Notes under the pieces: generated by a model | What the model was told of the DNA's origin: nothing | The model's input: only the letters and a program-made list of their open reading frames with translations | The model's database searches: none | Assembly: GCF_014062315.1 (NCBI RefSeq) | Contig: NZ_JACGLT010000001.1 | Location: 124,001-188,000, forward strand | DNA length: 64,000 bases | Reading direction: 5' to 3' | Origin: Gelidibacter maritimus | GTDB taxonomy: Bacteria; Bacteroidota; Bacteroidia; Flavobacteriales; Flavobacteriaceae | Program-made: the position numbers and the translations under genes | Shown here: one piece after another, positions 6,777-37,274 of the stretch | Position numbering within the stretch: position 1 is the stretch's first letter | Layout of the letters: each line of letters opens with the position of its first letter

Positions 6777-6820
6777 ATGACTTATATCATATTTTTAATA
6801 ACCTATTTAAGATATTTTTG
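6777..6820 (+). promoter_or_regulatory. hemN promoter: FNR-like box plus -7 element
   Basis: ATGACTTATATCAT (6777-6790) fits the core TGAY-N4-RTCA. TATTTTTG (6813-6820) fits the Bacteroidota -7 consensus TAnnTTTG. The start-to-start distance of 36 nt puts the box centre near -40, a class II activator position. The same distance recurs at five other promoters here. Confidence 0.75.
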
Positions 6821-6843
6821 AGGCAGATTTAATCGATACAAAA

Positions 6844-8208
6844 ATGAAAAAGTCATTGATAGATAAGTATAATGTGGCTGGACCAAGATATACAAGTTAT
6901 CCTACGGTTCCGTATTGGATTGATGACACATTTTCTTTGAAAGCATGGAAGGATTCGCTTTTTACATCATTTAACGAAAGCAACGAAGAGGAAGGATTGA
7001 GTCTTTATATCCACCTTCCATTCTGCGAGAGTCTATGCACGTTTTGTGGCTGTCATAAACGAATTACAAAACAGCATAGTGTTGAAATTCCATATATAAA
7101 TGCGTTAGTCAAAGAATGGGACCTCTATTGCGACCTGTTACCGTCGAGACCCATAATAAAAGAAATGCATTTTGGGGGCGGTACACCAACCTTCTTTTCG
7201 CCTACACATTTAAGCATGCTCATTAATTGTATTTTAAGACGTGCTACATTGGCCGACGGTTATGAGTTCAGTTTTGAAGGTCATCCCAATAACACGACAG
7301 CCGAGCATTTGCAAACCTTTTATGACCTAGGGTTCAAACGGGTCAGTTTTGGGGTGCAGGATTATAATGAAACCGTGCAAAAAGCAATTCATAGAATCCA
7401 ACCTTTTGAGAATGTCAAACGAGTGACTGAGCAAGCCAAAGCCATTGGTTATACGTCGGTAGGACATGATCTTATTTTCGGATTACCATTTCAAACCGAA
7501 GCACATGTTCGGGAATCCATAGCCAAAACGAAGCTTCTCAAACCCGACCGGATCGCCTTTTACAGTTATGCGCACGTTCCATGGATAAAGGGCAACGGGC
7601 AACGTGGTTTTGACGAGAGTAATCTGCCCTCTGGATTGGCTAAAAGAAAGCAGTATGAGTTAGGGAAGACCTTACTCTTTGAGGCAGGTTATCATGAAAT
7701 TGGAATGGATCATTTTGCGTTAGAATCAGATTCCTTGTACCAATCTATGATTACTGATCAACTCCACCGAAATTTTATGGGATATACCGCATCAAAAACC
7801 AAGGCGATGATTGGCTTGGGCGTATCGGCAATTAGCGATAGTTGGTACGGATTTGCGCAAAACGTTAAGAACTTGGAAGATTATTACCATTTGGTTAATG
7901 AGGGCATAATTCCTGTAGTGAAGGGTCATATTTTAAATTCAGAAGATCTCATCATCCGAAAACACATTCTTAATTTGATGTGTCGTTTCCAAACCTCATG
8001 GACACCAAATACACTCTATTTTGAGGAGCTGCCAGAGATCTTGGCATATTTAACAGAAATGGAACAAGATGGTTTGCTGGTTCGTAGCGAAGGGCAGTTG
8101 ACTATTACGCCAAAAGGGAAACCATTTGTTAGAAATGTTTGCATGGCCTTTGATTTGCATTTAAAAAGAAAAAAACCTGAAACACAATTGTTTTCAATGA
8201 CTGTGTAA
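6844..8208 (+). CDS. hemN: Oxygen-independent coproporphyrinogen III oxidase
   Basis: 454 residues, full length for HemN. The N-terminal signature GPRYTSYPTVPYW is specific to HemN. The radical-SAM cluster motif CESLCTFCGC places Cys61, Cys65, Cys68 and Cys70. FGGGTPTFF is the SAM-binding GGGTP motif. The C-terminal HemN domain follows at residues ~370-445. It decarboxylates coproporphyrinogen III to protoporphyrinogen IX without oxygen, so it supplies haem for the cbb3 oxidase and c-type cytochromes under low oxygen. An FNR-like promoter precedes it. Confidence 0.96.
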   Translation: MKKSLIDKYNVAGPRYTSYPTVPYWIDDTFSLKAWKDSLFTSFNESNEEEGLSLYIHLPFCESLCTFCGCHKRITKQHSVEIPYINALVKEWDLYCDLLPSRPIIKEMHFGGGTPTFFSPTHLSMLINCILRRATLADGYEFSFEGHPNNTTAEHLQTFYDLGFKRVSFGVQDYNETVQKAIHRIQPFENVKRVTEQAKAIGYTSVGHDLIFGLPFQTEAHVRESIAKTKLLKPDRIAFYSYAHVPWIKGNGQRGFDESNLPSGLAKRKQYELGKTLLFEAGYHEIGMDHFALESDSLYQSMITDQLHRNFMGYTASKTKAMIGLGVSAISDSWYGFAQNVKNLEDYYHLVNEGIIPVVKGHILNSEDLIIRKHILNLMCRFQTSWTPNTLYFEELPEILAYLTEMEQDGLLVRSEGQLTITPKGKPFVRNVCMAFDLHLKRKKPETQLFSMTV

Positions 8209-8313
8209 GAATTTGCGCTTTAAAACATATAGTTGATAGAGATTTTCATTTGTCTCTTTAACTAAATATTAGTACCTTTTATTTTTAATCATTTTAATAC
8301 ATAAAACCTACCT

Positions 8314-9236: not shown

Positions 9237-9299
9237 GGACAAAAATGTCCGAAATATGACAAAAATCATATTATATATATGTGTATATCGGTAATTTTG
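9237..9299 (+). promoter_or_regulatory. nirK promoter: Rrf2-like box, FNR-like box, -7 element
   Basis: Three elements in order: GGACAAAAATGTCC (9237-9250), spacer GAAAT (9251-9255), ATGACAAAAATCAT (9256-9269), then the -7 element TAATTTTG (9292-9299). The FNR-like box starts 36 nt before the -7 element. No good -33 TTTG is seen, as expected for an activator-dependent promoter. The same two boxes with the same spacer occur in front of the nos operon. Confidence 0.78.
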
Positions 9300-9325: not shown

Positions 9326-10771
9326 ATGAAATCAAAACTAAAATTTACAGTACTCATTGCAACAGTGTTTTTATTTAGCTGTTTCAATGAAAAAAAAGAA
9401 AAATATACGGCTGCGGAAGATATTCCTGTAAGTCGTGAGATGATTGCAGAATTGACGGCACCGCCTCATGTACCTAAACCAGTTGGGAAACGTAAAGCAA
9501 AAAAGCTTATCGTTAAAATGGAAATTCTCGAAGCTGAAGGTGAAATTTCAAACGGAGTGCGTTACGTTTACTGGACTTTTGGAGGTTCGGTACCGGGGAG
9601 TTTTATTAGAGCTCGTGTAGGTGATGAAATCGAATTTCATTTACAAAACCACCCTGACAATAAACTACCTCATAATATTGATTTACATGCTGTCAATGGT
9701 CCAGGTGGGGGTGCAGAATCATCATTTGTGGCTCCTGGGCACGAAAAGGTGTTTTCATTTAAGGTGTTAGCTCCAGGACTATATGTGTACCACTGTGCTA
9801 CAGCTCCGGTTGGAATGCATATTGCCAACGGAATGTACGGACTTATCTTGATAGAACCAGAAGGTGGTTTGCCACCGGTTGATAAAGAATATTATGTGAT
9901 GCAGGGTGATTTTTATACTGCCGGTCCTAACGGTGAGCGTGGCCTACAACCTTTTGATATGCAAAAAGCTGTTGACGAAAAAGCAGATTATGTGGTCTTT
10001 AACGGTAGTGTTGGTGCATTGACTGGAGATGGCGCATTGACCGCAAAAGTAGGTGAAACCGTAAGACTCTTTATGGGTAATGGTGGGCCCGGTTTAGTGT
10101 CCTCTTTCCATATTATTGGAGAAATATTTGACAAGGTAACCGTTGAGGGCGGTAGTCTAGTTAATGAGAACGTTCAAACCACTTTGATTCCTGCCGGTGG
10201 TGCAGCAATGATAGAATTTAAAGTAGATGTTCCAGGATCTTATGTCTTGGTAGATCACTCCATATTCAGAGCGTTTAATAAAGGTGCTTTAGGCCTGTTG
10301 AACGTTACAGGAGAGGAAAATGAAAAAATATACTCGGGAGAGCTTATGGATAATATTTATCTTCCAGAAGGTCCGGGAATTCAAAAAATGCCAACCACCA
10401 GCGAGGTCAAAGAATCGGATATTCCTGCTAAATCGTTCGATGAGCAAATGAAGTTTGGAAAACAAATTTACGGTCAAACCTGTATTGCTTGTCACCAATC
10501 AGAAGGGCAGGGTATTCCAAATGCATTTCCGCCGTTGGCTGAATCCGATTATCTAAATGCTGATGTTGACAGAGCTATTGAAGCGGTACTCTTCGGGTTG
10601 AGTGGAGAGATTACTGTAAACGGTGAGAAGTACAACAGTATCATGACCGCTCAGATGATTTCACAAGAAGAAGTGGCCAATGTAATGACCTATGTCTATA
10701 ACAGCTGGGGCAACAATAAAACCGTAGTAACACCGGAAATGGTGAAGAAAGTAAAAGAGAGTAGAAAATAG
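9326..10771 (+). CDS. nirK: Copper nitrite reductase with C-terminal cytochrome c domain
   Basis: 481 residues. A lipoprotein signal ends at Cys19 (FLFSC). Two cupredoxin domains follow. The first carries the type 2 copper histidine in PHNIDLHAV and the type 1 copper ligands in [11 protein letters not shown] (around residues 155-162). The second carries [11 protein letters not shown]. Residues ~375-475 are a fused class I cytochrome c with CIACH at residues 385-389. It reduces nitrite to NO at the outer face of the periplasm, and the fused haem probably receives electrons from the respiratory chain. First gene of a nirK, nirV-like, SCO, porin cluster. Confidence 0.95.
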
Positions 10772-13953: not shown

Positions 13954-14016
13954 GGATAAAATTGTCCGAAATATGATTATTGTCATGTTTTTCTTAAGAT
14001 TATCGACTTAGATTTG
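13954..14016 (+). promoter_or_regulatory. nos operon promoter: Rrf2-like box, FNR-like box, -7 element
   Basis: GGATAAAATTGTCC (13954-13967), spacer GAAAT (13968-13972), ATGATTATTGTCAT (13973-13986), then TAGATTTG (14009-14016). Order, spacer sequence and both distances are identical to the nirK promoter. It leaves an ~80-nt leader before the first start codon. Confidence 0.78.
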
Positions 14017-14097: not shown

Positions 14098-14586
14098 ATG
14101 AAAAAAACACTAACAATTTTGACTGTATTGAGCGTAATGCTATTTATGGGATGTGGTGATGGAGAGAAAAAGAAAGATGATCCATACGGGAAACCAGCAT
14201 CTACAGAGCAGGCCAAACCTGTATCCACTGTGCCTGCTTCTCAAAGAGTAGACTTGACCAATAAAGGTATCGGACCGATTAAAAACGTTGAGCTTGGCGA
14301 AACAATTGATATGGAAATGGCCGCTAAGGGAGAGGAAGTTTACAATATGAATTGTACTGCTTGTCATAAAGTAGATAAGAAATTTATCGGACCTGCTCCA
14401 AAGGGAATTTTGGAAAGAAGAACACCAGAATGGGTGATGAACATGATCTTGAATCCTGAGGAAATGACTAAAGATGATCCGCTTGCTCATGATCTTTTGC
14501 TAGAGTTTAACGGTTCGCCAATGGCAAACCAGCACATGACAGAAGAACAGGCGAGGCAGATGGTAGAATATTTTAGAACACTATAA
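14098..14586 (+). CDS. Mono-haem cytochrome c lipoprotein of the nos operon
   Basis: 162 residues. A lipoprotein signal ends at Cys19 (LFMGC). A linker rich in Pro/Thr/Lys (residues ~25-60) leads to a class I cytochrome domain with CTACH at residues 86-90 and a late methionine-rich PMANQHM that can supply the axial ligand. It is first in the nos operon and so is the likely electron donor to NosZ, playing the part of NosC-type cytochromes in clade II systems. Confidence 0.88.
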   Translation: MKKTLTILTVLSVMLFMGCGDGEKKKDDPYGKPASTEQAKPVSTVPASQRVDLTNKGIGPIKNVELGETIDMEMAAKGEEVYNMNCTACHKVDKKFIGPAPKGILERRTPEWVMNMILNPEEMTKDDPLAHDLLLEFNGSPMANQHMTEEQARQMVEYFRTL

Positions 14587-14653
14587 TATAGATTCCAACA
14601 ACCAGTCGACTTTTGAAAATTTAAATCACTTCTTGGCTTAAAACTAATCACGT

Positions 14654-15223
14654 ATGAAAACAACTCTTAAAATGCTCTTTATTTCGTTTGCATTACTTGC
14701 GTTTGCCGCTTGCAAAACTGAGACAGACACCGGATCGTCAGTAGAGCTTTCCACTCAACCCGATACCGAAATCAATAATCAGGGGCAAGCTTTTATAGAA
14801 GATGATGAATCGCAGCCAAATATTCTTCAAATAGCAATAGGATCTCCAGACCATACCACATTAGTGGCGGCTGTACAAGCAGCAGGTTTGGAAAACTCAT
14901 TAGTTAATGCTGGACCTCTTATGGTTTTTGCACCGGTCAATGAGGCCTTTGAAGCGCTTCCTGCCGGAACTGTAGACGATCTTTTAAAGCCAGAGAATAA
15001 AGAAAAATTGGCCATGATCCTTAAGAATCATGTCACACCTGGTAACTATACTAAAGACTTTTTGAAAAAATTTAAAAAAGTGGGGCAGGCCAGTGGCGAA
15101 GATGCTGCTGTTGAAGTGCAAGGTGAGGATGTTTATGTGGGTGGTGCCAAAATATTGGCAAGTGTTCCAGCCGGAAATGGGATTGTTCACGTCGTGGATA
15201 AAGTAATATTACCAGTAAACTAA
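14654..15223 (+). CDS. Fasciclin (FAS1) domain lipoprotein
   Basis: 189 residues. A lipoprotein signal ends at Cys20 (FAAC). Residues ~55-189 form one FAS1 domain, with the H1/H2-type pieces HTTLVAAVQAAGLENSL, LMVFAPVNEAFEALP and IVHVVDKVILPVN. FAS1 domains mediate adhesion or protein contact. Its place between the donor cytochrome and nosZ suggests a structural role at the outer face of the periplasm for the N2O reductase system, but no mechanism is known. Confidence 0.88.
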   Translation: MKTTLKMLFISFALLAFAACKTETDTGSSVELSTQPDTEINNQGQAFIEDDESQPNILQIAIGSPDHTTLVAAVQAAGLENSLVNAGPLMVFAPVNEAFEALPAGTVDDLLKPENKEKLAMILKNHVTPGNYTKDFLKKFKKVGQASGEDAAVEVQGEDVYVGGAKILASVPAGNGIVHVVDKVILPVN

Positions 15224-15256
15224 CTATAAATCAATTTAATTTAAAATAATGCGACA

Positions 15257-17224
15257 ATGAAAAAATCAATTAATATTTTATTTTCCTTGGTTATAGCTGC
15301 CGGATTGGTTAGCTGTAACAATGGAAACGACAGAAAGTCGAGCAAGGGTCAAGGTGGCCTGTCAACAAACGCAGCAGAACGTGTGTATGTTGCACCGGGG
15401 GAACTTGACGAATACTACGCTTTTATGTCTGGAGGCTTTAGTGGCCAACTTAGTGTCTATGGTCTGCCATCGGGGCGGATGTTGAAAGTACTTCCAGTAT
15501 TTTCACAAAACCCCGAAAATGGCTATGGTTATACTGAAGAGACCAAACCGATGCTAAACACATCTTATGGGTTTGTGCCTTGGGACGATTCTCACCACCC
15601 TGACATTTCACAAACAAATGGAGAATTGGATGGCCGTTGGATTTTCATCAATGGTAACAACACACCTCGAATTGCCAGAATTGGTTTACAGAATTTTAAA
15701 ACTGAGGAAATTATCGAAATTCCAAACAGTGCGGGTAACCACAGTTCATCGTTTATTACCGAAAACACCGAGTATGTTGTTGCCGGAACACGCTTTTCTG
15801 TGCCAATTCCACAGAAGGATATGCCGATAAATGAATACAAAGGGAATTTTAAAGGCTCTTTAACCTTTATCAGCGTTGATCAAGAAACGGGACGAATGGG
15901 AATTAAATTCCAATTGATCATGCCTGGATTTAACTATGACCTTTCTCACCCTGGACGCGATAAGAGTCACGGTTGGTTCTTCTTTACTACTTATAATACT
16001 GAGGAAGCTCACTCATTATTGGAAGTTAACGCTTCACAAAATGATAAAGATTTCATCGCTGCCATTAACTGGAAAAAAATTGAGGAATATGTTAACAATG
16101 GTGGCGGGAAAATGGTGCCTGCCAACTATGCACATAACGTGATGGATGAACATACACATTCTGCAACGTCTACCATGTTAAAAGAAGTATTGACCGTAAA
16201 CCCAATGGATGTTCCGGGAGCAGTTTATTTCTTGCCTACTCCAAAATCGCCTCACGGTTGTGACGTAGACCCAACAGGAGAATATATTATTGGTAACGGA
16301 AAACTTTCTGCCGACCTAACGGTGCACAGTTTTACCAAAATGCTTGATGCTATTGAAAACAAGAAATTTGATGGTGAGGCTTATGGTATTCCAATCTTGA
16401 ATTTTGAAGATATCCTTGCAGGTGTTGTTAAACAACCAGGTTTAGGACCATTGCATACAGAGTTTGATGAACACGGAAATGCATATACAACTTTCTTTAT
16501 TTCTTCTGAAGTTGTAAAATGGAAAGTCGGAACTTGGGAAGTTTTAGACCGTCAGCCAGTGTTTTACTCTGTAGGTCACGGAATGATCCCTGGAGGGAAT
16601 TCACGCAAACCATTTGGTAAATACTTTGTAGCCCTAAACAAGATTACAAAAGATAGATATCTGCCAACAGGACCAGAGTTGACTCAATCTGCACAATTGT
16701 TTGATATTACAGGTGATAAAATGGAGCTCTTGCTCGATTTTCCAACCATTGGAGAACCACACTATGCCGCTGCCATCCCTGCGGAGATGATTGCAAAAAA
16801 CTCTAGAAAAATCTATAAGCTTGCAGAAAATAAACACCCATACGCCTCTTTTACTAATGCAGATGCAAAAGTTGTGCGCGAAGGCAAAGACGTACACATC
16901 TATATGAATATGATACGAAGCCATTTTAACCCAGATAACATTGAAGGGGTTAAGGTAGGTGACAAAGTGTACTTCCATATTACAAACCTTGAACAAGACT
17001 TTGACGTTCCTCACGGTTTTGCGGTAATTGGTGCTAATAATGCTGAAATGCTTATTATGCCAGGAGCTACTGAAACCTTAGTTTGGGAGCCAAAAGAAGT
17101 AGGTGTGTGGCCGTTCTATTGTACTGATTTCTGTTCTGCGCTTCATCAGGAAATGCAAGGCTATGTCCGTGTATCACCAGCAGATTCCGATATTGAGTTG
17201 TCTTGGTCTTTAGGTGAAGATTAA
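15257..17224 (+). CDS. nosZ: Nitrous oxide reductase, clade II (Sec-type)
   Basis: 655 residues. The N-terminus is a Sec lipoprotein signal ending at Cys20 (AGLVSC), with no twin-arginine motif; this marks clade II. The beta-propeller with the CuZ site starts near DDSHHPDISQTNG and includes NYAHNVMDEHTHSAT, PKSPHGCDVDPTGEY and GPLHTEFDEHG histidines. The C-terminal cupredoxin carries the CuA motif CTDFCSALHQEM (Cys622, Cys626, His630, Met633). It reduces N2O to N2. It is followed by a double hairpin, which may set its level above that of the maturation genes. Confidence 0.97.
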   Translation: MKKSINILFSLVIAAGLVSCNNGNDRKSSKGQGGLSTNAAERVYVAPGELDEYYAFMSGGFSGQLSVYGLPSGRMLKVLPVFSQNPENGYGYTEETKPMLNTSYGFVPWDDSHHPDISQTNGELDGRWIFINGNNTPRIARIGLQNFKTEEIIEIPNSAGNHSSSFITENTEYVVAGTRFSVPIPQKDMPINEYKGNFKGSLTFISVDQETGRMGIKFQLIMPGFNYDLSHPGRDKSHGWFFFTTYNTEEAHSLLEVNASQNDKDFIAAINWKKIEEYVNNGGGKMVPANYAHNVMDEHTHSATSTMLKEVLTVNPMDVPGAVYFLPTPKSPHGCDVDPTGEYIIGNGKLSADLTVHSFTKMLDAIENKKFDGEAYGIPILNFEDILAGVVKQPGLGPLHTEFDEHGNAYTTFFISSEVVKWKVGTWEVLDRQPVFYSVGHGMIPGGNSRKPFGKYFVALNKITKDRYLPTGPELTQSAQLFDITGDKMELLLDFPTIGEPHYAAAIPAEMIAKNSRKIYKLAENKHPYASFTNADAKVVREGKDVHIYMNMIRSHFNPDNIEGVKVGDKVYFHITNLEQDFDVPHGFAVIGANNAEMLIMPGATETLVWEPKEVGVWPFYCTDFCSALHQEMQGYVRVSPADSDIELSWSLGED

Positions 17225-17244
17225 TTATAAAGGACCAAAGTATA

Positions 17245-17285
17245 AGAATAAGGAAATTTTGTTTTAGTGTTTATTTCCTTATTCT
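17245..17285 (+). repeat. 13-nt perfect inverted repeat after nosZ
   Basis: Arms AGAATAAGGAAAT (17245-17257) and ATTTCCTTATTCT (17273-17285). It forms a long AT-rich hairpin just upstream of a second, GC-richer hairpin, so it may protect the nosZ mRNA 3' end. Confidence 0.65.
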
Positions 17286-17286
17286 G

Positions 17287-17322
17287 AGGCGAGAGTTGAA
17301 TTATCGCTCTCGCCTTTCTTTT
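17287..17322 (+). terminator. Terminator or attenuator between nosZ and its maturation genes
   Basis: Perfect 9-nt arms AGGCGAGAG (17287-17295) and CTCTCGCCT (17307-17315), followed by a T-rich tail to 17322. It lies inside what would otherwise be one nos operon. Confidence 0.8.
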
Positions 17323-17365
17323 AAAAATGCTATTAACTGAATGGTTAATTTAATTTGAAATTATT

Positions 17366-17980
17366 ATGAAAAAAGCTGGTATTATAATGATAATAGGATC
17401 GCTTTTGTTGTTAGGACTATTCAAGTTTCCCTTGTGGAATATCATGTTAGGAGCACCACAATATCCAGATCCACTTGGAATGAATATTTATATTCAAGGT
17501 ATAGAAGGTAACGAAGAATTTGATATACAAAACATTGACGGTCTTAACCACTATATTGGGATGAAAACCATTCCTAAAGCTGAAGAGATGTGGGAATTTG
17601 ACGTATTTCCTAAGGTAATTGGGTTTATGGTGGTGCTTGGCGTCATCATAGGCGTGCTTGGTTTTATTGGGAAAGTGAGCTATAAATGGTTCCTTGGGTG
17701 GTTTGTATTAATGTCAGTTTTGGGAGCATTGGGAATGTATGATTTCAATTTATGGTTAATAGATTATGGTACTGATTTAGATCCTAAAGCTATTATGGCA
17801 TATACCCATCCAGATGGTACGCCCATGACCTATAAACCTCCACTGATTGGCTATCAAAAGATGCTTAACTTTGATGTGGACTCTTGGCCAGCAACTGGAG
17901 CTTATATGATATTTGTTGGCATGTTGCTTACTGTAGTAGCTTTCTTTGTTGGGAAAAAGGAGTCTAAACAAGTTGCTTAA
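17366..17980 (+). CDS. Four-helix membrane protein of the nos operon, NosB-like
   Basis: 204 residues with about four transmembrane helices: residues ~5-25 (GIIMIIGSLLLLGLF), 88-108 (VIGFMVVLGVIIGVLGFIG), 112-135 (FLGWFVLMSVLGALGMYDF) and 180-198 (AYMIFVGMLLTVVAFFVG). A large periplasmic loop follows the first helix. Clade II nos clusters usually carry a membrane protein named NosB next to nosZ, and position and size fit this. I rely on context rather than a motif. An ATTAAC-N6-GTTAAT palindrome sits at 17332-17349, just before the start. Confidence 0.8.
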   Translation: MKKAGIIMIIGSLLLLGLFKFPLWNIMLGAPQYPDPLGMNIYIQGIEGNEEFDIQNIDGLNHYIGMKTIPKAEEMWEFDVFPKVIGFMVVLGVIIGVLGFIGKVSYKWFLGWFVLMSVLGALGMYDFNLWLIDYGTDLDPKAIMAYTHPDGTPMTYKPPLIGYQKMLNFDVDSWPATGAYMIFVGMLLTVVAFFVGKKESKQVA

Positions 17981-18088
17981 ATGGCATGAAGTGGACCTTT
18001 TACCAGGTATAATTTCAGACAGAAAATTTGAATGTAGATTTTTCAAACTAATAAAAATATTATTGCTCAATTTTAAAAATATGCACAA

Positions 18089-18529: not shown

Positions 18530-18629
18530 AACTAATTTCAACAGGTTTTGAGTTAATAAACAGATCAGGAATTTGCTGCTGAAACCTTATTAATTTCAAA
18601 TAAATTTCTCCAATGAGAATAACTTTATA

Positions 18630-21389: not shown

Positions 21390-21433
21390 GTGATAAATAT
21401 CATAGGGAATTCAAAATATCTTGGTTAAATTTG
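21390..21433 (+). promoter_or_regulatory. FNR-like box and -7 element abutting the small Cys gene
   Basis: GTGATAAATATCAT (21390-21403; core TGAT-AAAT-ATCA) and TAAATTTG (21426-21433). The start-to-start distance is 36 nt, as at the other FNR-like promoters. The -7 element ends only 4 nt before the ATG at 21438, so the transcript would start at or next to the start codon. Confidence 0.65.
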
Positions 21434-25103: not shown

Positions 25104-25104
25104 C

Positions 25105-28363: not shown

Positions 28364-29065
28364 TTAATCACAGTCAATCGTGCCTTGGACCATGTCTACA
28401 ACTGGAGCAGGGGAGATGTAAGGAATACCTAATCCCATGCCTCGCAGAATAAATAAAAGCCCTATAATGACCACAAATACTGGAATTGCTTTTTGAATGC
28501 GCTGTTTCACTTTGGTATTTAAAAATTTACCGAGATAAATAGCTGTAGTCATTAATGGGATGGTGCCTATGCCAAACAATGCCATATATAAACTCCCTCT
28601 CAGAGCGCCTTCCATTGCCAAAGAAGCAAACACTGCCATATAGACGAGTCCGCAAGGGAGAAATCCATTGAGAAATCCGATTGTCAGAAACGTGTCTGCT
28701 GTTTTTTTCTTAAATGCTTGACCTAAAGCTGATTTTACTTTAGAAATGAGCTTATAGATAGGTTTTGAAAAATTGTACTTATTGAAAACTCTGGTGGGTA
28801 GGAGGACTACAATGATCATTAAAATTCCGATAAATATGGAAAGTTGCTGTTGTAAGCCAAAAATATAAAGACTTTTACCAACCAACCCAAAAAAGAGGCC
28901 TATGATGCTATAGGCTAATATTCGTCCAAAGTGATAGGTAAATATCTGGAAGACTTTTTTTCCGGTATTTTCACGATCAACGGGTAGCATAAAAGCGATT
29001 GGACCGCACATACCCACGCAATGAAAACTTCCTAAAAGGCCAAGTATGACAGCAGACCAGAGCAT
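28364..29065 (-). CDS. SafE/TauE-like membrane protein of the cbb3 oxidase cluster
   Basis: 233 residues, about six transmembrane helices, of the DsbD/UreH-like SafE family. It opens with GLLGSFHCVGMCGPIAFML, whose HCVGMCGP motif can bind copper, and has a second GFLNGFLPCGLVYMA repeat-half signature. In Bacteroidota this gene regularly ends the cco operon and is thought to help copper handling or oxidase assembly. It starts immediately after ccoH with no gap. Confidence 0.85.
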   Translation of the reverse strand: MLWSAVILGLLGSFHCVGMCGPIAFMLPVDRENTGKKVFQIFTYHFGRILAYSIIGLFFGLVGKSLYIFGLQQQLSIFIGILMIIVVLLPTRVFNKYNFSKPIYKLISKVKSALGQAFKKKTADTFLTIGFLNGFLPCGLVYMAVFASLAMEGALRGSLYMALFGIGTIPLMTTAIYLGKFLNTKVKQRIQKAIPVFVVIIGLLFILRGMGLGIPYISPAPVVDMVQGTIDCD

Positions 29066-29512
29066 TTAATAGACAATATCCTTTTTATATAAATAAAGAT
29101 CGTCGTTATATGCCCAATCCACTTTGATGTTCCAACGACCACCTAATAAACTTTTGTCAGGTATGAGCAAATTATGTTCAGACAATGAAATTTCTTTTTC
29201 AAAGTCCAGCTGTTTATTAGATGGTCTATATAGAAACACTCTTCCGGTTATTTTCGACGGTTCCATATCTTTTGGAAAACTTAAAAGAAGGCCTTCAGGA
29301 ATGCGCTTCCAAGAAATATCTTCTGAAAGAAGTTGCGCATTTTTCTGTTTGCTCATGTCATTTTCAAACTCCAATTCTTGGTTGTAGTAGTTTTCAACGA
29401 CCAAGTCATGTTCATATTTTTTGTTGACGGTCATGGAAATGACAAAATATAATATAAAGCTTATAAAAAATATAAACGCCAACACAATTCCTGTACCCCA
29501 ATTTATTTTCAT
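29066..29512 (-). CDS. ccoH: FixH/CcoH-type cbb3 oxidase assembly protein
   Basis: 148 residues. One N-terminal transmembrane helix (GIVLAFIFFISFILYFVISM) is followed by a periplasmic FixH domain with VVENYYNQELEFENDMSKQ and GGRWNIKVDWAYNDDLYLYK. FixH/CcoH stays bound to cbb3 oxidase during assembly. It is separated from ccoG by an unusual 128-nt spacer but abuts the SafE-like gene. Confidence 0.9.
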   Translation of the reverse strand: MKINWGTGIVLAFIFFISFILYFVISMTVNKKYEHDLVVENYYNQELEFENDMSKQKNAQLLSEDISWKRIPEGLLLSFPKDMEPSKITGRVFLYRPSNKQLDFEKEISLSEHNLLIPDKSLLGGRWNIKVDWAYNDDLYLYKKDIVY

Positions 29513-29640
29513 AGTCTCTACACGCCTGCAAAAGCAGGAATCTTCATTTTTAACTTGTTAATATGTTTTGGAAACCTACAGGCGCTACCATTTTTTGTGG
29601 GCAAACCTTGCAGACTACCGCATTATTCTTTTTCGGAAAT
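29513..29640. repeat. 128-nt spacer with extragenic palindrome inside the cco operon
   Basis: The hairpin CCTGC-AAAA-GCAGG (29525-29538) is of a type common between flavobacterial genes. The minus strand just after the ccoG stop can encode NNAVVCKVCPQKMVAP, a short two-cysteine peptide without a proper start codon. All other gaps between cco genes downstream of ccoS are short, so an inserted repeat is likely. Confidence 0.45.
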
Positions 29641-31065
29641 CTAATTATAACTTCGCGGTCCTAAGAAGTTAACCGATGTTGTTTCAATCAATTCATCGCC
29701 ACTGTACACCTCGATCATTACTTTGTTCTTATCCGAATTTAATTCACTTTGGTCAATTTCAATAAACATCGTGCCCTCGGCCAAACCTTGTTCTGGAACG
29801 CTAAAACCATCCTTAGCAGAAACGAGCTTGACAACACCATTATAACCTCTCAATTTGAAATTAACCTCTGGGATTTCCTTGGTAGTCTTATTGATCAGTT
29901 TATAGGTAAATACATTACTAATGATGTTATTATCCTTTTGCTCGTACAATTGACCAGGAAGCCTCAAGACACGCGCTTGTAAATCATTTCTTAAAAGCAA
30001 CATCCCTAAAAGAAGGCCTGTTAAAATTACCAAAACAGCAGAATAGCCTTTTAAACGTGGCGTAAATTCAAATTTCTTTTTCTTTTCGATATTTTCTTCA
30101 CTGGCATATCTAATAAGGCCTTTTGGCAGATTGATACTCTCCATAATATGATCACACTCGTCAATACATGCCGTACAATTGATACATTCTAATTGTGTAC
30201 CGTTTCTAATGTCAATACCCGTTGGACAAACATTAACACATTGAAAACAATCAATGCAGTCTCCAAAACCAAGCGCTTCCCGATCTTCGTTTTTTCTGAA
30301 TTTCTTTCTGCCATTTTCACCTTCACCCCGTTTGTGATCATAGGCCACAACGATGGATTTATTATCCAATAGAACCCCTTGTAACCTGCCGTAAGGACAG
30401 GCGATAATACAAACTTGCTCTCTGAACCAGGCAAACACAAAATAAAAGACACCCGTAAAGATAAGCAAAGGAACTAAAGTGCTGGCGTGCGCTACAGGAC
30501 CTTCAGCTATATAAACCAACAATTTGTCACTGCCAATTAAAAAAGCCAAAAACACATTGGCAATGATGAAGGATATGGTTAAGAAGAGAAACCACTTGAA
30601 TCCTTTTTTTCTAATCTTTTCCGCATTCCATGCTTGTCGGTCCAGACGCATCTGTGCACCCCTATCACCCTCAATGGCATATTCAATTCTTCTAAATACC
30701 ATTTCCATAAAAATGGTCTGTGGGCAAATCCATCCACAGAATATACGACCAAATGCCACGGTAAATAGGGCGATAAAAATCACTCCAATTAACATTGAAA
30801 TGACAAAAAGATGAAAGTCTTGTGGCCAAAAAGGAAATCCGAAAATATTAAAACGGCGTTCTAATATGTTGAACATTAAGAACTGGTTACCGTTGATTTT
30901 AATAAATGGTGCTGATAAAAAGAAAGCTAACAGTATATAGCTCACCCACTTCCGGTAATCGTAAAATTTTCCGCTTGGTTTTTTGGGAAATACCCATTTT
31001 CGATTACCTTCTTCAGTAAGTGTGCCTATTGAATCTCTAAAACTTTCGTTCCCTGGTGTTTCCAC
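29641..31065 (-). CDS. ccoG: CcoG, polyferredoxin-like cbb3 oxidase assembly factor
   Basis: 474 residues. Four to five N-terminal transmembrane helices contain RIFCGWICPQTIFMEMVFRR and IIACPYGRLQGV, with cytoplasmic-side cysteines. Two [4Fe-4S] ferredoxin motifs follow: DCIDCFQCVNVCPTG and CINCTACIDECDH. A C-terminal immunoglobulin-like periplasmic domain completes it. CcoG is thought to reduce Cu(II) to Cu(I) for cbb3 oxidase assembly. It follows ccoP in the same operon. Confidence 0.95.
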   Translation of the reverse strand: METPGNESFRDSIGTLTEEGNRKWVFPKKPSGKFYDYRKWVSYILLAFFLSAPFIKINGNQFLMFNILERRFNIFGFPFWPQDFHLFVISMLIGVIFIALFTVAFGRIFCGWICPQTIFMEMVFRRIEYAIEGDRGAQMRLDRQAWNAEKIRKKGFKWFLFLTISFIIANVFLAFLIGSDKLLVYIAEGPVAHASTLVPLLIFTGVFYFVFAWFREQVCIIACPYGRLQGVLLDNKSIVVAYDHKRGEGENGRKKFRKNEDREALGFGDCIDCFQCVNVCPTGIDIRNGTQLECINCTACIDECDHIMESINLPKGLIRYASEENIEKKKKFEFTPRLKGYSAVLVILTGLLLGMLLLRNDLQARVLRLPGQLYEQKDNNIISNVFTYKLINKTTKEIPEVNFKLRGYNGVVKLVSAKDGFSVPEQGLAEGTMFIEIDQSELNSDKNKVMIEVYSGDELIETTSVNFLGPRSYN

Positions 31066-31132
31066 AATATTTTATATTTTATCCCTTAGGATATGATCAG
31101 CATTTCAAAACAAAAAGCCGAATACTTTTAAT

Positions 31133-32011
31133 CTATTCTTCTACCCAAAGCTCACCCTCTGGCTCTTTTGGATTGGCAGGTGTTGTACCTTGGAAGGTCA
31201 GAATATAACTTGATACCTGAGCCATTTCAACGGGTTTTAGAGTGGATTTCCATGGTACCATTCCTTTTCCACTACGTCCACCTTCACTTACGGTGTGGAA
31301 AATATTCTTAATGCCACCACCCAATATCCAATATTCGTCGGTGAGGTTTGGACCAATTCCACCACCGCCATCTGGCATGTGGCAGGCCACGCAATAAGCG
31401 TCATATACGACTTTTCCATTAGCTAAATCAGCAGGATCTGTCATGACGGTTACCGACTCAGCATCAATCAGGTCTGGTGCGTTTTTCTTATATTCCTCCA
31501 ACTCCATTTTAGCAAGTTCTAAAGTAGAATGTAACTCGTCATATTGAGTGGGACCGTTGAATACATGGTAACGCAACATATAGATTGCAGCGAATACAAT
31601 TGAGGCGTAAAAACCATAGCGCCACCATGGCGGAAGATCGTTGTCCAACTCCCTAATGCCATCATAGTCGTGGTCGAGAATAATTTCACCTTCCTTTTCA
31701 ATAGGCTTGGATCCCAACATTTTTTTGTAGGTTTTTTTGACCCATTCCACAATCTTTGGTGTGGAGGTTTTAGTTGTCAGATACCTGGCTTTAGCAGCTT
31801 CATCCAAACTTTGAAACATTACATTCTCCAAAGCCGCAATTATCGCTTCAATACCTATTATGAGAAGTAATATCAGTACCAAGAACAATACAACCATGGG
31901 ATTGTTCATAAATGCAGGTTCGTGCGGTGTCCCAACAAATAGTTCTATGATACCCCAAATAATAAAGAATATTACGGGTACCCTAACATAAGACGGAATT
32001 AAATTTCTCAT
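31133..32011 (-). CDS. ccoP: cbb3 oxidase subunit CcoP, single-haem form
   Basis: 292 residues. Transmembrane helices lie at residues ~8-28, 35-60 and 130-147. The conserved DGIRELDNDLPPWW motif of CcoP precedes the last helix. Only one haem motif is seen, CVACH in VYDAYCVACHMPDGGGG, whereas proteobacterial CcoP has two. It passes electrons toward CcoO/CcoN. Its start overlaps the ccoQ end by 4 nt. Confidence 0.93.
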   Translation of the reverse strand: MRNLIPSYVRVPVIFFIIWGIIELFVGTPHEPAFMNNPMVVLFLVLILLLIIGIEAIIAALENVMFQSLDEAAKARYLTTKTSTPKIVEWVKKTYKKMLGSKPIEKEGEIILDHDYDGIRELDNDLPPWWRYGFYASIVFAAIYMLRYHVFNGPTQYDELHSTLELAKMELEEYKKNAPDLIDAESVTVMTDPADLANGKVVYDAYCVACHMPDGGGGIGPNLTDEYWILGGGIKNIFHTVSEGGRSGKGMVPWKSTLKPVEMAQVSSYILTFQGTTPANPKEPEGELWVEE

Positions 32012-32193
32012 AATTGTGTATCGTTTTGGTTGTCTAAAGGAATGTCGCTCATTCTATCGATATATTCTTTTTTGGCGGTGAATACCCACCAAAAAAGAGC
32101 AACGAAGAAAATGAAAAATATGAGCAAGGAAATCATTGGGTATATTTCAATACCAGAAATGCTATCCATGTGATTTTTTATATATTTCAACAT
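32008..32193 (-). CDS. ccoQ: cbb3 oxidase small subunit CcoQ
   Basis: 61 residues. One transmembrane helix (ISLLIFFIFFVALFWWVF) is followed by TAKKEYIDRMSDIPLD, typical of CcoQ. It stabilises the cbb3 complex. It lies between ccoNO (5-nt gap) and ccoP (4-nt overlap). Confidence 0.88.
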   Translation of the reverse strand: MLKYIKNHMDSISGIEIYPMISLLIFFIFFVALFWWVFTAKKEYIDRMSDIPLDNQNDTQL

Positions 32194-32198
32194 AATGG

Positions 32199-34382
32199 TT
32201 AGTTTAGTGTTGTTTCTACATCTTTAACTTTAATATCAGTGCCGAGACGCTGTAAGTAGGCGATAATGGCCACAATTTCACGGTCACGCATTTCAACAAA
32301 ATCAGCACCACCATTTTCTTTGTCTTTTTCGTAAGCCTCTGCAAACGCCGGATCACCGTATAGGTTCTCCTCAATTTCAATTCCTTGTTCGGTCATGCTT
32401 TGCTGTGCATTTGCCACGTCTTCTTCAGTATATGGCACGCCCAAGGTCATCATCGTTCTCATTTTTCGCTCCGTAACCGACTTATCCAACTTATCAGTGA
32501 TCAGCCATTTATAACCTGGCATAATAGAACCGGATGAGGTACTCTGTGGGTCATACATATGATTGAAGTGCCAACTGTCAGAGTATTTGCCGCCAATTCT
32601 GTGTAAGTCTGGCCCTGTACGCTTACTTCCCCATAAGAATGGATGGTCGTACACGTATTCACCAGCCTTGGAGAATTCACCATAACGCTCTACTTCGTCT
32701 CTAAATGGTCTAATCATTTGAGAGTGACAGCCTACACAACCTTCTCTAATATAAAGGTCTCTACCTTCAAGTTCGAGCGGGGTATATGGTTTTACACTCG
32801 TAATGGTTGGAATGTTGGAATCTATCATAATGGTTGGAATAATTTGCACAATCCCACCAATAAGTATAGCTATTGTTGCTCCAATAGTTAATTGTACAGG
32901 TCTACGCTCTAACCAACTGTGCCAGTGTTCGCCAGCAACCATGCCTTTAGAAACGCGTTGTAGTGCTGGGGCCTCTGCAAGCTCGTCAGTAACTGTGCTA
33001 CCCTTTCTAACCGTTTGAACAATATTATAAATCATGACAATCATTCCCGTCAAGTATAAGGTACCACCGATTGCTCGCATCCAATACATTGGCATAATTT
33101 CAGTAACGGTTTCCAAGAAGTTACCGTAAACCAAAGTACCATCAGGATTGAATTGTTTCCACATACTGGCTTGCGTAAAACCGGCAACGTATAATGGCAA
33201 GGCATACATGATGATTCCCAATGTTCCTATCCAGAAATGCAGATTGGCCATGCCAGTAGAATAGAGCTTTGATTTGGTCAAACGAGGAATCAACCAATAC
33301 ACCATTCCAAAAGCTAAGAATCCGTTCCACGCCAAAGCTCCTACGTGAACGTGGGCAATAATCCAGTCTGTATAATGCGCAATGGCATTTACGTTTTTGA
33401 GCGATAACATCGGACCTTCAAACGTGGCCATTCCATAACCGGTAATAGCAACTACCATAAATTTAAGAACAGGATCTGTTCTTACCTTGTCCCAAGCACC
33501 ACGAAGGGTTAAGAGTCCGTTGATCATCCCTCCCCAAGAAGGCATTAATAACATGACTGAGAATGCCACACCTAAATTTTGTGCCCATTCTGGTAGGGCA
33601 GTATATAATAAGTGATGCGGCCCTGCCCAAATATAAATAAAGATCAACGACCAGAAGTGAACTATGGAAAGCCTATAGGAATATACAGGTCGGTTAGCTG
33701 CTTTAGGTACAAAATAGTACATCAGACCTAAAAACGGCGTGGTCAGGAAAAACGCCACGGCATTATGTCCATACCACCATTGTACTAAAGCATCTTGAAC
33801 CCCTGCATAAACCGAATAACTTTTAAATGCGCTAACAGGAAGTTCTAAACTGTTAAAAATATGAAGTACGGCAACCGTAACAAAAGTGGCAATATAAAAC
33901 CAAATGGCTACATATAAATGGCGTTGTCTTCTTCTTAAAATTGTACCGATAAGGTTCCACCCAAAAACAACCCAAACAAATGCAATAGCAATATCAATAG
34001 GCCACTCTAATTCAGCATATTCCTTGGAGGTTGAAAAACCCAACGGTAGTGTAATTGCCGCAGCAGCAATGATTAATTGCCAGCCCCAAAAGTTAATATT
34101 ACTTAAGGCATCACTGAACATTCTGGCTTTTAGCAATCGTTGCGAGGAATAATATACCCCAGCAAAAATGGCATTACCCACAAATGCAAATATAACCGCA
34201 TTGGTATGTAAAGGTCTCAACCTTCCAAAACTTAACCATGATATGCCATCGGTAAGATTAGGGAATAGGAATAGAAAAGCTAATAAGAGCCCCACGATCA
34301 TACCAATAAGCCCCCAAAACAGGGTGGCATAAAGGAATTTCTTAACGACTTTGTTATCGTAATAGAATTGTTGCATTTCCAT
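32199..34382 (-). CDS. ccoN: Fused cbb3 oxidase catalytic subunit and mono-haem cytochrome, CcoNO
   Basis: 727 residues. Residues ~1-480 are CcoN, with twelve helices and haem/copper ligand motifs (LRPLHTNAVIFAFVG, WWYGHNAVAFFLT, GPHHLLYTALP, WIIAHVHVGALAWNG). Residues ~500-727 are CcoO, with one helix (IGATIAILIGGIVQIIPTI) and the haem c motif EGCVGCHSQMIRPF near residue 548. The fusion is normal for Bacteroidota. It reduces O2 to water at very low oxygen. The ccoS promoter drives it. Confidence 0.96.
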   Translation of the reverse strand: MEMQQFYYDNKVVKKFLYATLFWGLIGMIVGLLLAFLFLFPNLTDGISWLSFGRLRPLHTNAVIFAFVGNAIFAGVYYSSQRLLKARMFSDALSNINFWGWQLIIAAAAITLPLGFSTSKEYAELEWPIDIAIAFVWVVFGWNLIGTILRRRQRHLYVAIWFYIATFVTVAVLHIFNSLELPVSAFKSYSVYAGVQDALVQWWYGHNAVAFFLTTPFLGLMYYFVPKAANRPVYSYRLSIVHFWSLIFIYIWAGPHHLLYTALPEWAQNLGVAFSVMLLMPSWGGMINGLLTLRGAWDKVRTDPVLKFMVVAITGYGMATFEGPMLSLKNVNAIAHYTDWIIAHVHVGALAWNGFLAFGMVYWLIPRLTKSKLYSTGMANLHFWIGTLGIIMYALPLYVAGFTQASMWKQFNPDGTLVYGNFLETVTEIMPMYWMRAIGGTLYLTGMIVMIYNIVQTVRKGSTVTDELAEAPALQRVSKGMVAGEHWHSWLERRPVQLTIGATIAILIGGIVQIIPTIMIDSNIPTITSVKPYTPLELEGRDLYIREGCVGCHSQMIRPFRDEVERYGEFSKAGEYVYDHPFLWGSKRTGPDLHRIGGKYSDSWHFNHMYDPQSTSSGSIMPGYKWLITDKLDKSVTERKMRTMMTLGVPYTEEDVANAQQSMTEQGIEIEENLYGDPAFAEAYEKDKENGGADFVEMRDREIVAIIAYLQRLGTDIKVKDVETTLN

Positions 34383-34391
34383 AGTAAAAAA

Positions 34392-34586
34392 TTATTCTTG
34401 GTTAGTTAGTTTTGATTTTTTTAATGTTTTTGGTTTTTCTTTTACTAATTCGTCTTCAAAAAGCATACGTACAGAAGGCGTGTAACTATCATCATACTGT
34501 CCGTTTTTTACGGCGAAAATGAAGGCAACAAAAAAGATGACGGCTACTAAAATACTAAGACTCAGTAATAAATATATAACACTCAT
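34392..34586 (-). CDS. ccoS: cbb3 oxidase maturation protein CcoS
   Basis: 64 residues. One N-terminal helix (VIYLLLSLSILVAVIFFVAF) is followed by KNGQYDD, the usual CcoS hallmark. CcoS is needed for insertion of haem and copper cofactors into CcoN. It is the first gene after the FNR-like promoter at 34607-34650. Confidence 0.92.
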   Translation of the reverse strand: MSVIYLLLSLSILVAVIFFVAFIFAVKNGQYDDSYTPSVRMLFEDELVKEKPKTLKKSKLTNQE

Positions 34587-34606: not shown

Positions 34607-34650
34607 CAAAATTACATTTGACGGTTTTATTATTTTATGATATTTATCAT
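34607..34650 (-). promoter_or_regulatory. ccoS-NO-Q-P promoter: FNR-like box plus -7 element
   Basis: On the minus strand, ATGATAAATATCAT (complement of 34637-34650) starts 36 nt before TAATTTTG (complement of 34607-34614). The -7 element lies about 21 nt upstream of the ccoS start codon. It has the same geometry as the other FNR-like promoters. Confidence 0.75.
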
Positions 34651-34802
34651 GTTTTAAATATTCGAATTACGAATATCGGAATATTTTTATAAACTTTCTC
34701 TTTTTAATGCTGCGTTAATTCCTACGTTTTAATCGAGTAGGTTTTTGGATTTTGATTATCTAATATCTTAAATTTCCATGAAGCACGATCAGAGAATTCA
34801 AT

Positions 34803-37202
34803 CTATTTTTCATTTTTTTTTAATTTACGCGCCGCCAAATTTGTTGTAATGGTTGTAAAAACAACGATACTGATTGAGCTTAAAGGCATCAAGATGGCTG
34901 CTACAACAGGTTCCAATCGTCCGGTGATGGCAAAAGAGAGACCCACAACATTGTACATAAATGAAAGTACAAAAGCCCATTTTACAATTTTAATGGCCGA
35001 TTTTGACAAGTTAATAAAATCGCTGAGACTATTAAATCTTTCGGCGTCCAAAATAGCATCACAGGCAGGAGAAAACACATTTACGTTTTCTGAAAGCGCA
35101 ATTCCAACGTTGCTTTGCGCAAGCGCCCCTGCATCATTCAGTCCATCTCCAATCATCAGTACCTTAGCGCCTTCGCTTTGATGGTGTTTGATATATTCCA
35201 ACTTATCATCCGGCTTCTGATTGAAAAGTAATTTGGTTCTGGCAGGAAGCAATTTTTTTAAATTTTCCATTTCGCCTTCATTGTCTCCAGATAGGATAGC
35301 CAAATCATAATTCTTTTTAAGTTGATTAAACAATTGCGACAAGCCTTTGCGATAACTATTATAGAATGTGTATTTTCCTTTGTACGCATCGTTACTGCTA
35401 ATATGGACAGAAGTATTCAAAGCAGCAGTTTCGTTTGTTTTTCCAACAAAATTTGCCGATCCAATTTTAATGCTGTCTTTTAAGTGCACCCCTTGAATAC
35501 CTTGACCTACATGCTCTTCAAATTGATCGAGCATGATAATGTCATTTTCTTCCAATAAGTCATAAAGCGTTCGACTTAAGGGATGGTTGGAACCTCTCAG
35601 CGTGTTTTTCAATAACAGCGCTTCAGATGGAGAAAGGACATCGCCTTCATAAGTGGCAGTACTTTGTTTGTTGGAGGTAATGGTTCCGGTTTTATCGAAT
35701 ATAATTGTATTTATAGCTGCCAATTGTTCTATAACTGTAGCGTTTTTTAAATAGAATTTATGTTTGCCAAAAATACGAAGGATATTACCGAGTGTGAATG
35801 GTGCTGCGAGGGCAATGGCACACGGACAGGCAATAATCAAAACCGAAGTAAAAACGTTCAATGCCTTGCTGGAGTCAACAAATAACCAAAATGCTGTAGA
35901 AATAAAGGCGATACTCAGAATAACAATGGTAAACCGTTTACTGATCAGGTTGGTCAAGGTTGTAAATCCGTCTTCCTTAACATTGTTGAACACATCATTG
36001 CCCCATAATTGAGTCAAATAACTTTGCTCCACACTTTTCAAAGCCTCCATTTCAATACTTCCTGAAGTCTGTCTGCCACCGGCAAAAATTTTGTCTCCAG
36101 AAACCTTAGTAACTGGATCCGATTCTCCCGTTACAAAACTGTAATCGATTTTTGCCCTTCCTTTGATAAGGACCCCATCTACCGGAATCAATTCTTCATT
36201 TCTAATAAGCAGACGATCTCCTTTTTTAATATCATAAACTTGGATGGGTTGCTCCTGACCAGCTTTGGAAATTTTGGTTATAGCAATTGGAAAATAGGAT
36301 TTATAGTCGCGTTCAAACGATAGAAACGAATAGGTTCTTTGTTGAAAGAATTTGCCCAGTAATAAAAAGAACAATAAGCCGGTTAAACTATCAAAAAAGC
36401 CTGACCCCAAATCAAACACAATATCCCACGTGCTTCGTAAAAATAGTACAATGATTCCTAAGGCAATCGGCACGTCAATATTTAGAACTTTGGCCCGAAG
36501 ACCTTTGTAGGCAGAAATAAAATAATCTTGTGATGAATAGAAGACCACTGGAAGTGAAAACGCAAACATTAGCCATCTAAAAAATGGTTTGTACTGTTCC
36601 AACCAAAACTCTTTTACTTCAAAATACTCAGGAAACGATAGGAACATCACATTTCCAAATGCAAAACCGGCAATTCCAAGTTTGTAAATCAATGAGCGAT
36701 TGACTTGACTTTTACCTGTGGAAAAATCCTCTAAACTGATATAAGGCTCATAGCCAATGGAGCTTAGTAAAATAACGGCTTCCTTTAAACTGTAATTTTG
36801 GGAGTTGAATTGGAGTCGCACCGTTTTTTTGCCAAAGTCAACCTGCGACGATGAAATATTTTTATTAAGCTTGTTAAGGTTTTCAAGAATCCAAATACAC
36901 GAGCTACAATGGATTTGTGGAATATAAAGAGTGGCTATTTGCGATTTGCCGTCATCAAACTCTACCAGCTTGTCTATAATATTTTGCTGGGTTAGGAAAT
37001 CGTATTTTCCTTGAATGTCTTTAGGTGTAGATCCTGGAGCAGATTGAAGATCATAATAGCAGGTGAGATCGTTTTCTGAAAAAATTTCATAAACCGTTTT
37101 ACAGCCTTGGCAACAGAAAGTTTTATCGTCATAGAAAATAGTGGACGAATCAGAGAGATCTCCACAGTGGAAACAAGTTGAAGATTCCATAATTATGCTC
37201 AT
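34803..37202 (-). CDS. ccoI: Copper-translocating P-type ATPase CcoI
   Basis: About 799 residues. The start is ambiguous among 37202 (MSIIMESST) and 37190 (MESSTCFHC). The longest ATG at 37217 is unlikely because it falls inside the predicted -7 element. The N-terminus has a zinc-ribbon-like TCFHCGDLSD...CCQGC and an HMA domain with HCSSCIW. The P-type core shows ACPCAIALAAPF, FDKTGTITSN and GDGLNDAGALAQS. CcoI exports copper to the periplasm for cbb3 oxidase. It has its own FNR-like promoter, divergent from the fnr gene. Confidence 0.94.
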   Translation of the reverse strand: MSIIMESSTCFHCGDLSDSSTIFYDDKTFCCQGCKTVYEIFSENDLTCYYDLQSAPGSTPKDIQGKYDFLTQQNIIDKLVEFDDGKSQIATLYIPQIHCSSCIWILENLNKLNKNISSSQVDFGKKTVRLQFNSQNYSLKEAVILLSSIGYEPYISLEDFSTGKSQVNRSLIYKLGIAGFAFGNVMFLSFPEYFEVKEFWLEQYKPFFRWLMFAFSLPVVFYSSQDYFISAYKGLRAKVLNIDVPIALGIIVLFLRSTWDIVFDLGSGFFDSLTGLLFFLLLGKFFQQRTYSFLSFERDYKSYFPIAITKISKAGQEQPIQVYDIKKGDRLLIRNEELIPVDGVLIKGRAKIDYSFVTGESDPVTKVSGDKIFAGGRQTSGSIEMEALKSVEQSYLTQLWGNDVFNNVKEDGFTTLTNLISKRFTIVILSIAFISTAFWLFVDSSKALNVFTSVLIIACPCAIALAAPFTLGNILRIFGKHKFYLKNATVIEQLAAINTIIFDKTGTITSNKQSTATYEGDVLSPSEALLLKNTLRGSNHPLSRTLYDLLEENDIIMLDQFEEHVGQGIQGVHLKDSIKIGSANFVGKTNETAALNTSVHISSNDAYKGKYTFYNSYRKGLSQLFNQLKKNYDLAILSGDNEGEMENLKKLLPARTKLLFNQKPDDKLEYIKHHQSEGAKVLMIGDGLNDAGALAQSNVGIALSENVNVFSPACDAILDAERFNSLSDFINLSKSAIKIVKWAFVLSFMYNVVGLSFAITGRLEPVVAAILMPLSSISIVVFTTITTNLAARKLKKNEK

Positions 37203-37214
37203 TTTTACCTTGTG

Positions 37215-37274
37215 CAAAGGTCGGAAATGATTATCATTTAAACTATGATAATTGTCATGATTTTCTTAATTTTG
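37215..37274. promoter_or_regulatory. Divergent ccoI/fnr control region
   Basis: ATGATAATTGTCAT (37245-37258) is an FNR-like box. For ccoI (minus) it starts 36 nt before GACCTTTG (complement of 37215-37222), a near match to TAnnTTTG. For the fnr gene (plus), TAATTTTG (37267-37274) lies only 8 nt beyond the box, so the box would cover its -33 region. A shorter palindrome ATGATTATCAT is at 37227-37237. Confidence 0.65.

Follow-up and report, generated by a model that had tools for sequence, protein, structure and literature searches.

Class II promoters of Escherichia coli carry a weak -35 element. In those controlled by FNR or CRP, for example dmsA, narG and nirB, a palindromic Crp/Fnr site sits at -41.5 upstream of respiratory targets, and 19 of the 23 FNR-activated promoters with a known start have their site at -41.5 +/- 4 (PMC3688515). 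In Bacteroidota, mapped starts of Flavobacterium psychrophilum place the element TAnnTTTG at -12 to -5 (PMC9723704), and the Crp-family regulator BT4338 (Crp/Cur) of Bacteroides acts on TAnnTTTG promoters (PMC6989115), its box being TATGTTnTAnAACATA (PMC3878776). The GTAAC box GTAACnnnnGTTAC is the motif of the HcpR2 regulons (PMC1274295). Few activator-promoter geometries were found described for the family Flavobacteriaceae or its class, and titles and abstract openings of open-licence PMC articles included none on the box or spacing reported here in Flavobacteriaceae; several of these searches combined many terms, which leaves absence from print unproven. Here we analyze a 64,000-nucleotide (nt) stretch of Gelidibacter maritimus (contig NZ_JACGLT010000001.1, positions 124,001 to 188,000 of the forward strand), referred to as the window, in which six promoters carry a Crp/Fnr-type box at exactly the same distance from the -7 element.

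A sequence-only reading of the window had listed these six boxes and their -7 elements, and direct inspection found all of them in place (6/6), with first bases exactly 36 nt apart at every site. We define the composite as a 14-nt Crp/Fnr box, a gap (22 nt at the six sites) and the Bacteroidota -7 element TAnnTTTG, and use gap for the number of nt between box and -7 element. Five of the six elements read TAnnTTTG, and the sixth, at ccoI, is GACCTTTG, as it had been read. The boxes have the form RTGAY-N4-RTCAY, mostly ATGAY-N4-RTCAT, and all six start with RTGAY. A search for the box followed by 26 N and TTTG returns exactly these six matches in the window, where 0.02 are expected, and none of 100 shuffles reaches six; the argument that identical spacing is hard to explain by chance therefore holds. 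The box alone occurs seven times against 1.16 expected, the seventh (2010-2023) lying inside a gene (1356-2648) with no -7 element at gap 22. The box labelled nos stands as a site, but not as a direct nosZ promoter: downstream lies a cytochrome c/fasciclin/nosZ group whose first start codon is at 14098. The hemN, nos and ccoS promoters are kept in three other genomes (G013, G107 and G244, the last of the same genus), and the nirK promoter in G013 and G244.

The sequence-only reading had also proposed scanning the whole genome and related Flavobacteriaceae for the composite. We scanned for the strict box and TAnnTTTG at any gap from 8 to 38, with the reversed pattern as a control. In the window's own genome (G000, 4.7 Mb), 8 of 14 matches fall at gap 22, and the reversed-pattern control gave 0. 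Three of the eight strict composites at gap 22 lie outside the window, each directly upstream of a start codon: two precede universal stress protein (usp) genes (Pfam) and one a small His/Cys gene that itself precedes a CusA-like gene. Of the five composites outside the window at other gaps, four fall within open frames (321-879 codons); the fifth, at gap 27, is the exception. When the -7 element is relaxed by dropping TA, the genome has 15 matches; those added precede Pta-like (210 nt away), thioredoxin-reductase-like, YceI-like and unknown genes, identified from translations, while two inside open frames (L252, L253) are probably due to chance. From the box side, 15 of the 116 box sites in the genome were read as loci. 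Seven of these, the six window sites and one further locus (L003), have TTTG or TTTC at gap 22, and the other eight do not, seven of them lying inside open frames of 157 to 542 codons. The further locus (box at 1501-1514 of L003; C1:117204) lies 6.8 kb before the window, with a box identical to that of hemN and TAATTTTC at gap 22. The di-haem cytochrome c peroxidase gene downstream of it is a likely further target.

The same peak is found in relatives. Across 299 Flavobacteriaceae genomes the scan returned 2082 composites at gaps 8-38 against 580 for the reversed control, with at least one in 275 genomes. Among the 150 family matches listed (16 of the 299 genomes), gap 22 accounts for 99, gap 23 for 10 and gap 21 for 5, with a scatter of 16 over gaps 33-38. 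The class listing held 150 rows; with the 64 from the window's own family set aside, 29 of the 86 matches from other families (21 genomes) fall at gap 22. Phylum genomes outside the class were covered by counts without listed rows. The spacing is real and general beyond the genome in which it was noticed. In the 99 family rows at gap 22 the spacer has few features apart from a T-rich stretch at -33 to -30, and because the spacers share so little else these promoters are not copies of one another. The T-rich stretch may belong to the box, since A is present at -50 in 68 % of 38 promoters.

Table 1. Promoters, genes and the shared operator in the window (predicted +1 from the -7 element).
Feature	Position	Strand	Box	Gap (nt)	-7 element	Predicted +1	Basis and remarks
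hemN promoter	6777..6820	+	ATGACTTATATCAT 6777-6790	22	TATTTTTG 6813-6820	6825	
hemN, oxygen-independent coproporphyrinogen III oxidase	6844..8208	+					TIGR00538 above cut-off
nirK promoter	9256..9299	+	ATGACAAAAATCAT	22	TAATTTTG 9292-9299	9304	
nirK, copper nitrite reductase with C-terminal cytochrome c domain	9326..10771	+					TIGR02376 above cut-off; Cytochrom_C
nos promoter	13973..14016	+	ATGATTATTGTCAT	22	TAGATTTG 14009-14016	14021	
nos group: cytochrome c, fasciclin, nosZ, unknown, nosL, nosD, nosF-like ATPase, nosY-like permease	14098..21373	+					Pfam; nosF and nosY labels assigned by position
Small Cys gene promoter	21390..21433	+	GTGATAAATATCAT	22	TAAATTTG 21426-21433	21438	
Small gene with CxGKCxL stretch	21438..21833	+					No Pfam or NCBIfam match
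ccoS promoter	34607..34650	-	ATGATAAATATCAT 34650-34637	22	TAATTTTG 34614-34607	34602	
ccoS, ccoNO fusion, ccoQ-like, ccoP, ccoG, ccoH, DsbD_2-type gene	28364..34586	-					Pfam; ccoQ-like below cut-off
ccoI promoter	37215..37258	-	ATGACAATTATCAT 37258-37245	22	GACCTTTG 37222-37215	37210	
ccoI, copper P-type ATPase	34803..37202	-					Pfam; ATG at 37202
Regulator (fnr) side of shared box	37245..37274	+	37245-37258	8	TAATTTTG 37267-37274		Centre -27.5
Crp/Fnr regulator P0001	37293..37970	+					Pfam; C4, C7, C29, C53, C59, C106; helix ATESAIR

With TAnnTTTG at -12 to -5 (PMC9723704), a gap of 22 puts the 14-nt box at -48 to -35 and its computed centre at -41.5, in line with the earlier estimate of about -40. 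The box thus ends at -35, and a TTG starting between -36 and -31, the place of the -33 element, occurs in 6 of the 99 gap-22 family promoters listed. Box, exact spacing and the rarity of a -33 TTG fit what class II activation predicts, the best explanation of the spacing. Overall, we consider it highly probable that the six sites serve Crp/Fnr-family activators as operators in class II placement; binding, activation and low-oxygen control of the six promoters we infer from the sequence. A dimer bound at -41.5 would cover the place where sigma would otherwise read the -33 element and would help sigma to use TAnnTTTG, and contacts of the dimer with sigma and alpha would account for the fixed spacing. 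Like the E. coli class II promoters, those described here have a palindromic Crp/Fnr site at -41.5 and respiratory targets; unlike them, they have TAnnTTTG in place of TATAAT and RTGAY-N4-RTCAY in place of TTGAT-N4-ATCAA. The geometry is known from E. coli and the Bacteroidota -7 version is a variant of it, which suggests that the textbook arrangement operates also on Bacteroidota promoters.

Two other boxes of the Crp/Fnr family served as tests of the geometry. A scan for the GTAAC box GTAACnnnnGTTAC in 295 genomes of the class gave 150 rows, from which 10 repeated copies (G632 and G757, gap 15) were dropped. Gap 22 accounts for 73 of the remaining 140, gap 23 for 15 and gap 21 for 4; 7 of the 73 gap-22 promoters have a TTG starting at -36 to -31. 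In the window's own genome, 6 of 7 are at gap 22. The HcpR2 regulons share with the six sites the Crp/Fnr family and the 14-nt format, the gap of 22 in Bacteroidia being found here; the box of the six sites differs from GTAACnnnnGTTAC.

The six GTAAC promoters at gap 22 in the own genome lie outside the window, at C1:280957, C1:294477, C1:320267, C1:321145, C7:82531 and C12:82590 (L240-L244). Downstream of five of them are genes for metallo-beta-lactamase/rhodanese, TauE permease, DsrE and thioredoxin proteins (Pfam) and a TolC-like protein (from its translation), and one of the boxes lies 4 nt beyond the end of a Crp/Fnr gene (L034). Unlike those of the HcpR2 regulons, the boxes in the sites read precede sulphur-related genes, not hcp, and the set looks like a sulphide/persulphide response.

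The Cur box behaves differently. It was scanned in 119 listed stretches (L121-L239) of named genomes, mostly Bacteroidales, with 121 matches. Among the matches listed, 42 of 121 fall at gaps 32-33 (centre -52.5/-53.5) and 26 at gaps 8-9 (about -28.5); gap 21 is empty, and gaps 20 and 22 together hold 5. A TTG at -36 to -31 is present in 20 of the 42 promoters at -52.5/-53.5. The -52.5/-53.5 position is not typical for E. coli CRP. With these peaks, and none at gap 21, we reject the idea that all Crp-family proteins of the phylum follow a -41.5 rule; the position is common to two box types and not universal. BT4338 thus resembles the regulator discussed here in being of the Crp family and in its TAnnTTTG promoters (PMC6989115), and differs in a box that peaks at gaps 32-33 and 8-9 beside a -33 TTG kept in 20 of 42, where the six-site box stands at gap 22.

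The box upstream of ccoI is shared with the divergent gene at 37293, which encodes a Crp/Fnr protein, and we compared the 30 best orthologous loci of this gene, the window's own included. ccoI lies beside the regulator gene in 27, with a strict box in 24 of these 27; all three loci lacking ccoI also lack the strict box. On the ccoI side of the 24 shared boxes, nnnnTTTG stands at gap 22 in 20, at gap 21 in 2 and at gap 23 in 1. In the 20 loci with gap 22, A at -11 and TTTG are invariably present and T at -12 is found in one (nAnnTTTG); this conservation rules out GACCTTTG as a random miss. The start of ccoI is the ATG at 37202, where the orthologues begin, the TTG at 37217 of the open reading frame list falling inside the -7 element. 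On the regulator side, TAnnTTTR stands at gap 8 in 23 of the 24 and at gap 9 in one, and the position of this box, centred at -27.5, suggests autorepression of the regulator. From this single box ccoI would be activated, at -41.5, and the regulator gene repressed, at -27.5.

Several observations weigh against class II activation as set out here, or against the 37293 protein as the activator of all six promoters, as had been proposed. The family and class counts include related genomes as separate rows, and the gap-peak probabilities assume an even gap spread and independent rows, an independence that related genomes violate. In G107 and G013 the gap at ccoI is 21 or 23, as it is in 15 of the 150 family matches listed, so the spacing rule is 22 +/- 1. 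The ccoI -7 element lacks T at -12, and at one of the 24 shared boxes (L048) the ccoI side lacks a TTTG at gap 22. The GTAAC box occurs 150 times when all gaps are added up, the reversed control pattern about 130 times (hand count); with totals this near the control, evidence of function there comes from the gap peak and not from the number of matches. The same-genus genome G244 lacks the 37293 gene, yet has a gap-22 box at hemN, nirK, nos, ccoS and ccoI. A search of the 299 family genomes found a match to the 37293 protein at E 1e-20 or better in 233, which a split at E 1e-40 divides into 182 genomes (class A) and 51 with a weaker match (class B); 66 have neither (class C). Relatedness ignored, composites (any gap 8-38) per Mb are 2.47, 2.05 and 0.81 in classes A, B and C (controls 0.61, 0.54 and 0.57), so that class B is nearly as composite-rich as class A.

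The 37293 protein thus keeps part of the role first given to it: it is a plausible activator at the six sites, which are of Crp/Fnr type, but G244 and the composite density in genomes with only a weaker match do not support it as sole activator, and a single-regulator claim goes too far. In G244 the cluster is syntenic and the regulator gene is absent between ccoI and a peptidase gene (L098 12938-13145), with the ccoI box kept. The best match to the 37293 protein there has E 4.4e-23, and the orthologue was not found among four of the five Crp-type proteins, the fifth being below the family cut-off; the weakest Crp-type matches, L119 (G244) and L120 (G013), were left out of the protein reading. 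Our reading is that several regulators share one box, although the pattern would also be compatible with G244 having lost the regulator recently.

The candidates for such sharing are fusions of a response regulator with a Crp protein, two in the window's own genome and one in G244, in which receiver, cNMP-binding and Crp helix-turn-helix domains were confirmed. They have the helix pattern ATE[ST]xIR in common with the 37293 protein (ATETLIR in the G244 fusion, ATESAIR in 37293). One of the two usp genes, which follow 2 of the 8 own-genome gap-22 composites, directly follows a fusion gene, and it is probable that the fusions recognize the same boxes, at least upstream of these two genes. They could also be the main activators, in place of the 37293 protein, at some or all of the six sites. 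G244, G056 and G069, the three genomes in which the class B match was checked and is a fusion, have 6, 9 and 13 gap-22 composites, and their Crp-type proteins, as far as read, include no 37293 orthologue. Against this stand the location of the 37293 gene within the cluster, the box it has in common with ccoI and the adjacency of the two genes in 27 of 30 loci; on balance we regard the fusions as main activators as possible, if somewhat unlikely. In the own genome the 37293 FNR-like protein would be the likeliest binder at the cco, nos, nirK and hemN promoters.

The fold of this protein is of the Crp/Fnr type (Pfam; structure model with mean pLDDT 75.8, best match 2gau, FNR 5e44 at E 3.0e-12), and the contact positions of its recognition helix retain E and R. 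It scores 59.6 bits against a cut-off of 228 for the curated Fnr subfamily model PRK11161, the match beginning at offset 16. If this offset holds to residue 106, C4, C7 and C106 presumably correspond to C20, C23 and C122 of E. coli FNR, and N13 to its C29. C4, C7, C53, C106 and N13 are invariant in 30 of 30 sequences (P0001 and 29 orthologues), and C29 and C59 are present in 29. The protein thus shares with FNR of E. coli and Aliivibrio fischeri the fold, an N-terminal CxxC and, should the offset hold, C106; it differs in having three of the four cluster cysteines, with Asn at the fourth place, and in the additional conserved C29, C53 and C59. The protein may hold a rearranged iron-sulphur site. 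As the operator, the classical FNR box TTGAY-N4-RTCAA was rejected: the own genome has 0 composites of this form with TAnnTTTG at gap 21-23. In the recognition helix an Ile stands at the place of E. coli FNR Ser212, which would fit A or G, not T, at the outer box position.

With one FNR cysteine absent from its canonical place, and nirK and nos being typical DNR targets, the 37293 protein might sense nitric oxide or another signal in the manner of DNR or NnrR rather than oxygen. We think this rather unlikely: the cco genes are classic low-oxygen targets, all six conserved cysteines, three of them at FNR positions, are present in at least 29 of 30 sequences, and DNR, NnrR and HcpR are described as having no FNR-type cysteine motif (PMC1274295).

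That the boxes are instead repressor sites blocking the -33 region is improbable. The box does cover the place of the -33 element, and the regulator side of the shared box, at -27.5, fits repression; simple repression would, however, need no single fixed distance, the rarity of a -33 TTG in gap-22 promoters means that help is probably needed, and most FNR sites at -41.5 in E. coli activate transcription (PMC3688515). Chance, base composition or copied promoters, for which the commonness of TTTG in AT-rich promoters might speak, is hardly credible against the shuffles, the reversed-pattern controls, the sharp single-gap peak and the little spacer sequence common to the 99 rows.

Under class II activation, box, 22 nt and TAnnTTTG would form a sequence rule by which activator-dependent promoters could be predicted throughout the family and in part of the class, and would make the action of Crp/Fnr proteins with the Bacteroidota sigma factor testable. 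It would bring N2O reduction, nitrite reduction, cbb3 oxidase and haem synthesis under a single type of switch, and it draws attention to an FNR-like sensor whose set of cysteines is unusual. A joint reading goes further, and we offer it tentatively, at somewhat less than an even chance. It combines a strict Bacteroidota position code, in which FNR-like and GTAAC regulators at exactly -41.5 would replace the -33 element and Cur at about -52.5 would act beside a kept one, with a new FNR-like low-oxygen sensor in Flavobacteriaceae whose cluster ligands would be rearranged, with Asn in place of the third Cys and three further conserved Cys, and whose asymmetric shared box would activate ccoI and repress the sensor.

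Two smaller features of the window complete the description. The small Cys gene, which has no Pfam or NCBIfam match, is predicted to be leaderless, the computed +1 being the A of its ATG; the distance from -7 element to ATG is identical in G013 and G107, and G244 has no strict box at this gene. Within the denitrification cluster, at 27015-28313, a gene for a ScdA/Ric-type di-iron protein adjoins an Rrf2 regulator gene; the pair has no strict box and may form a switch of its own, responding to nitric oxide or iron-sulphur stress.

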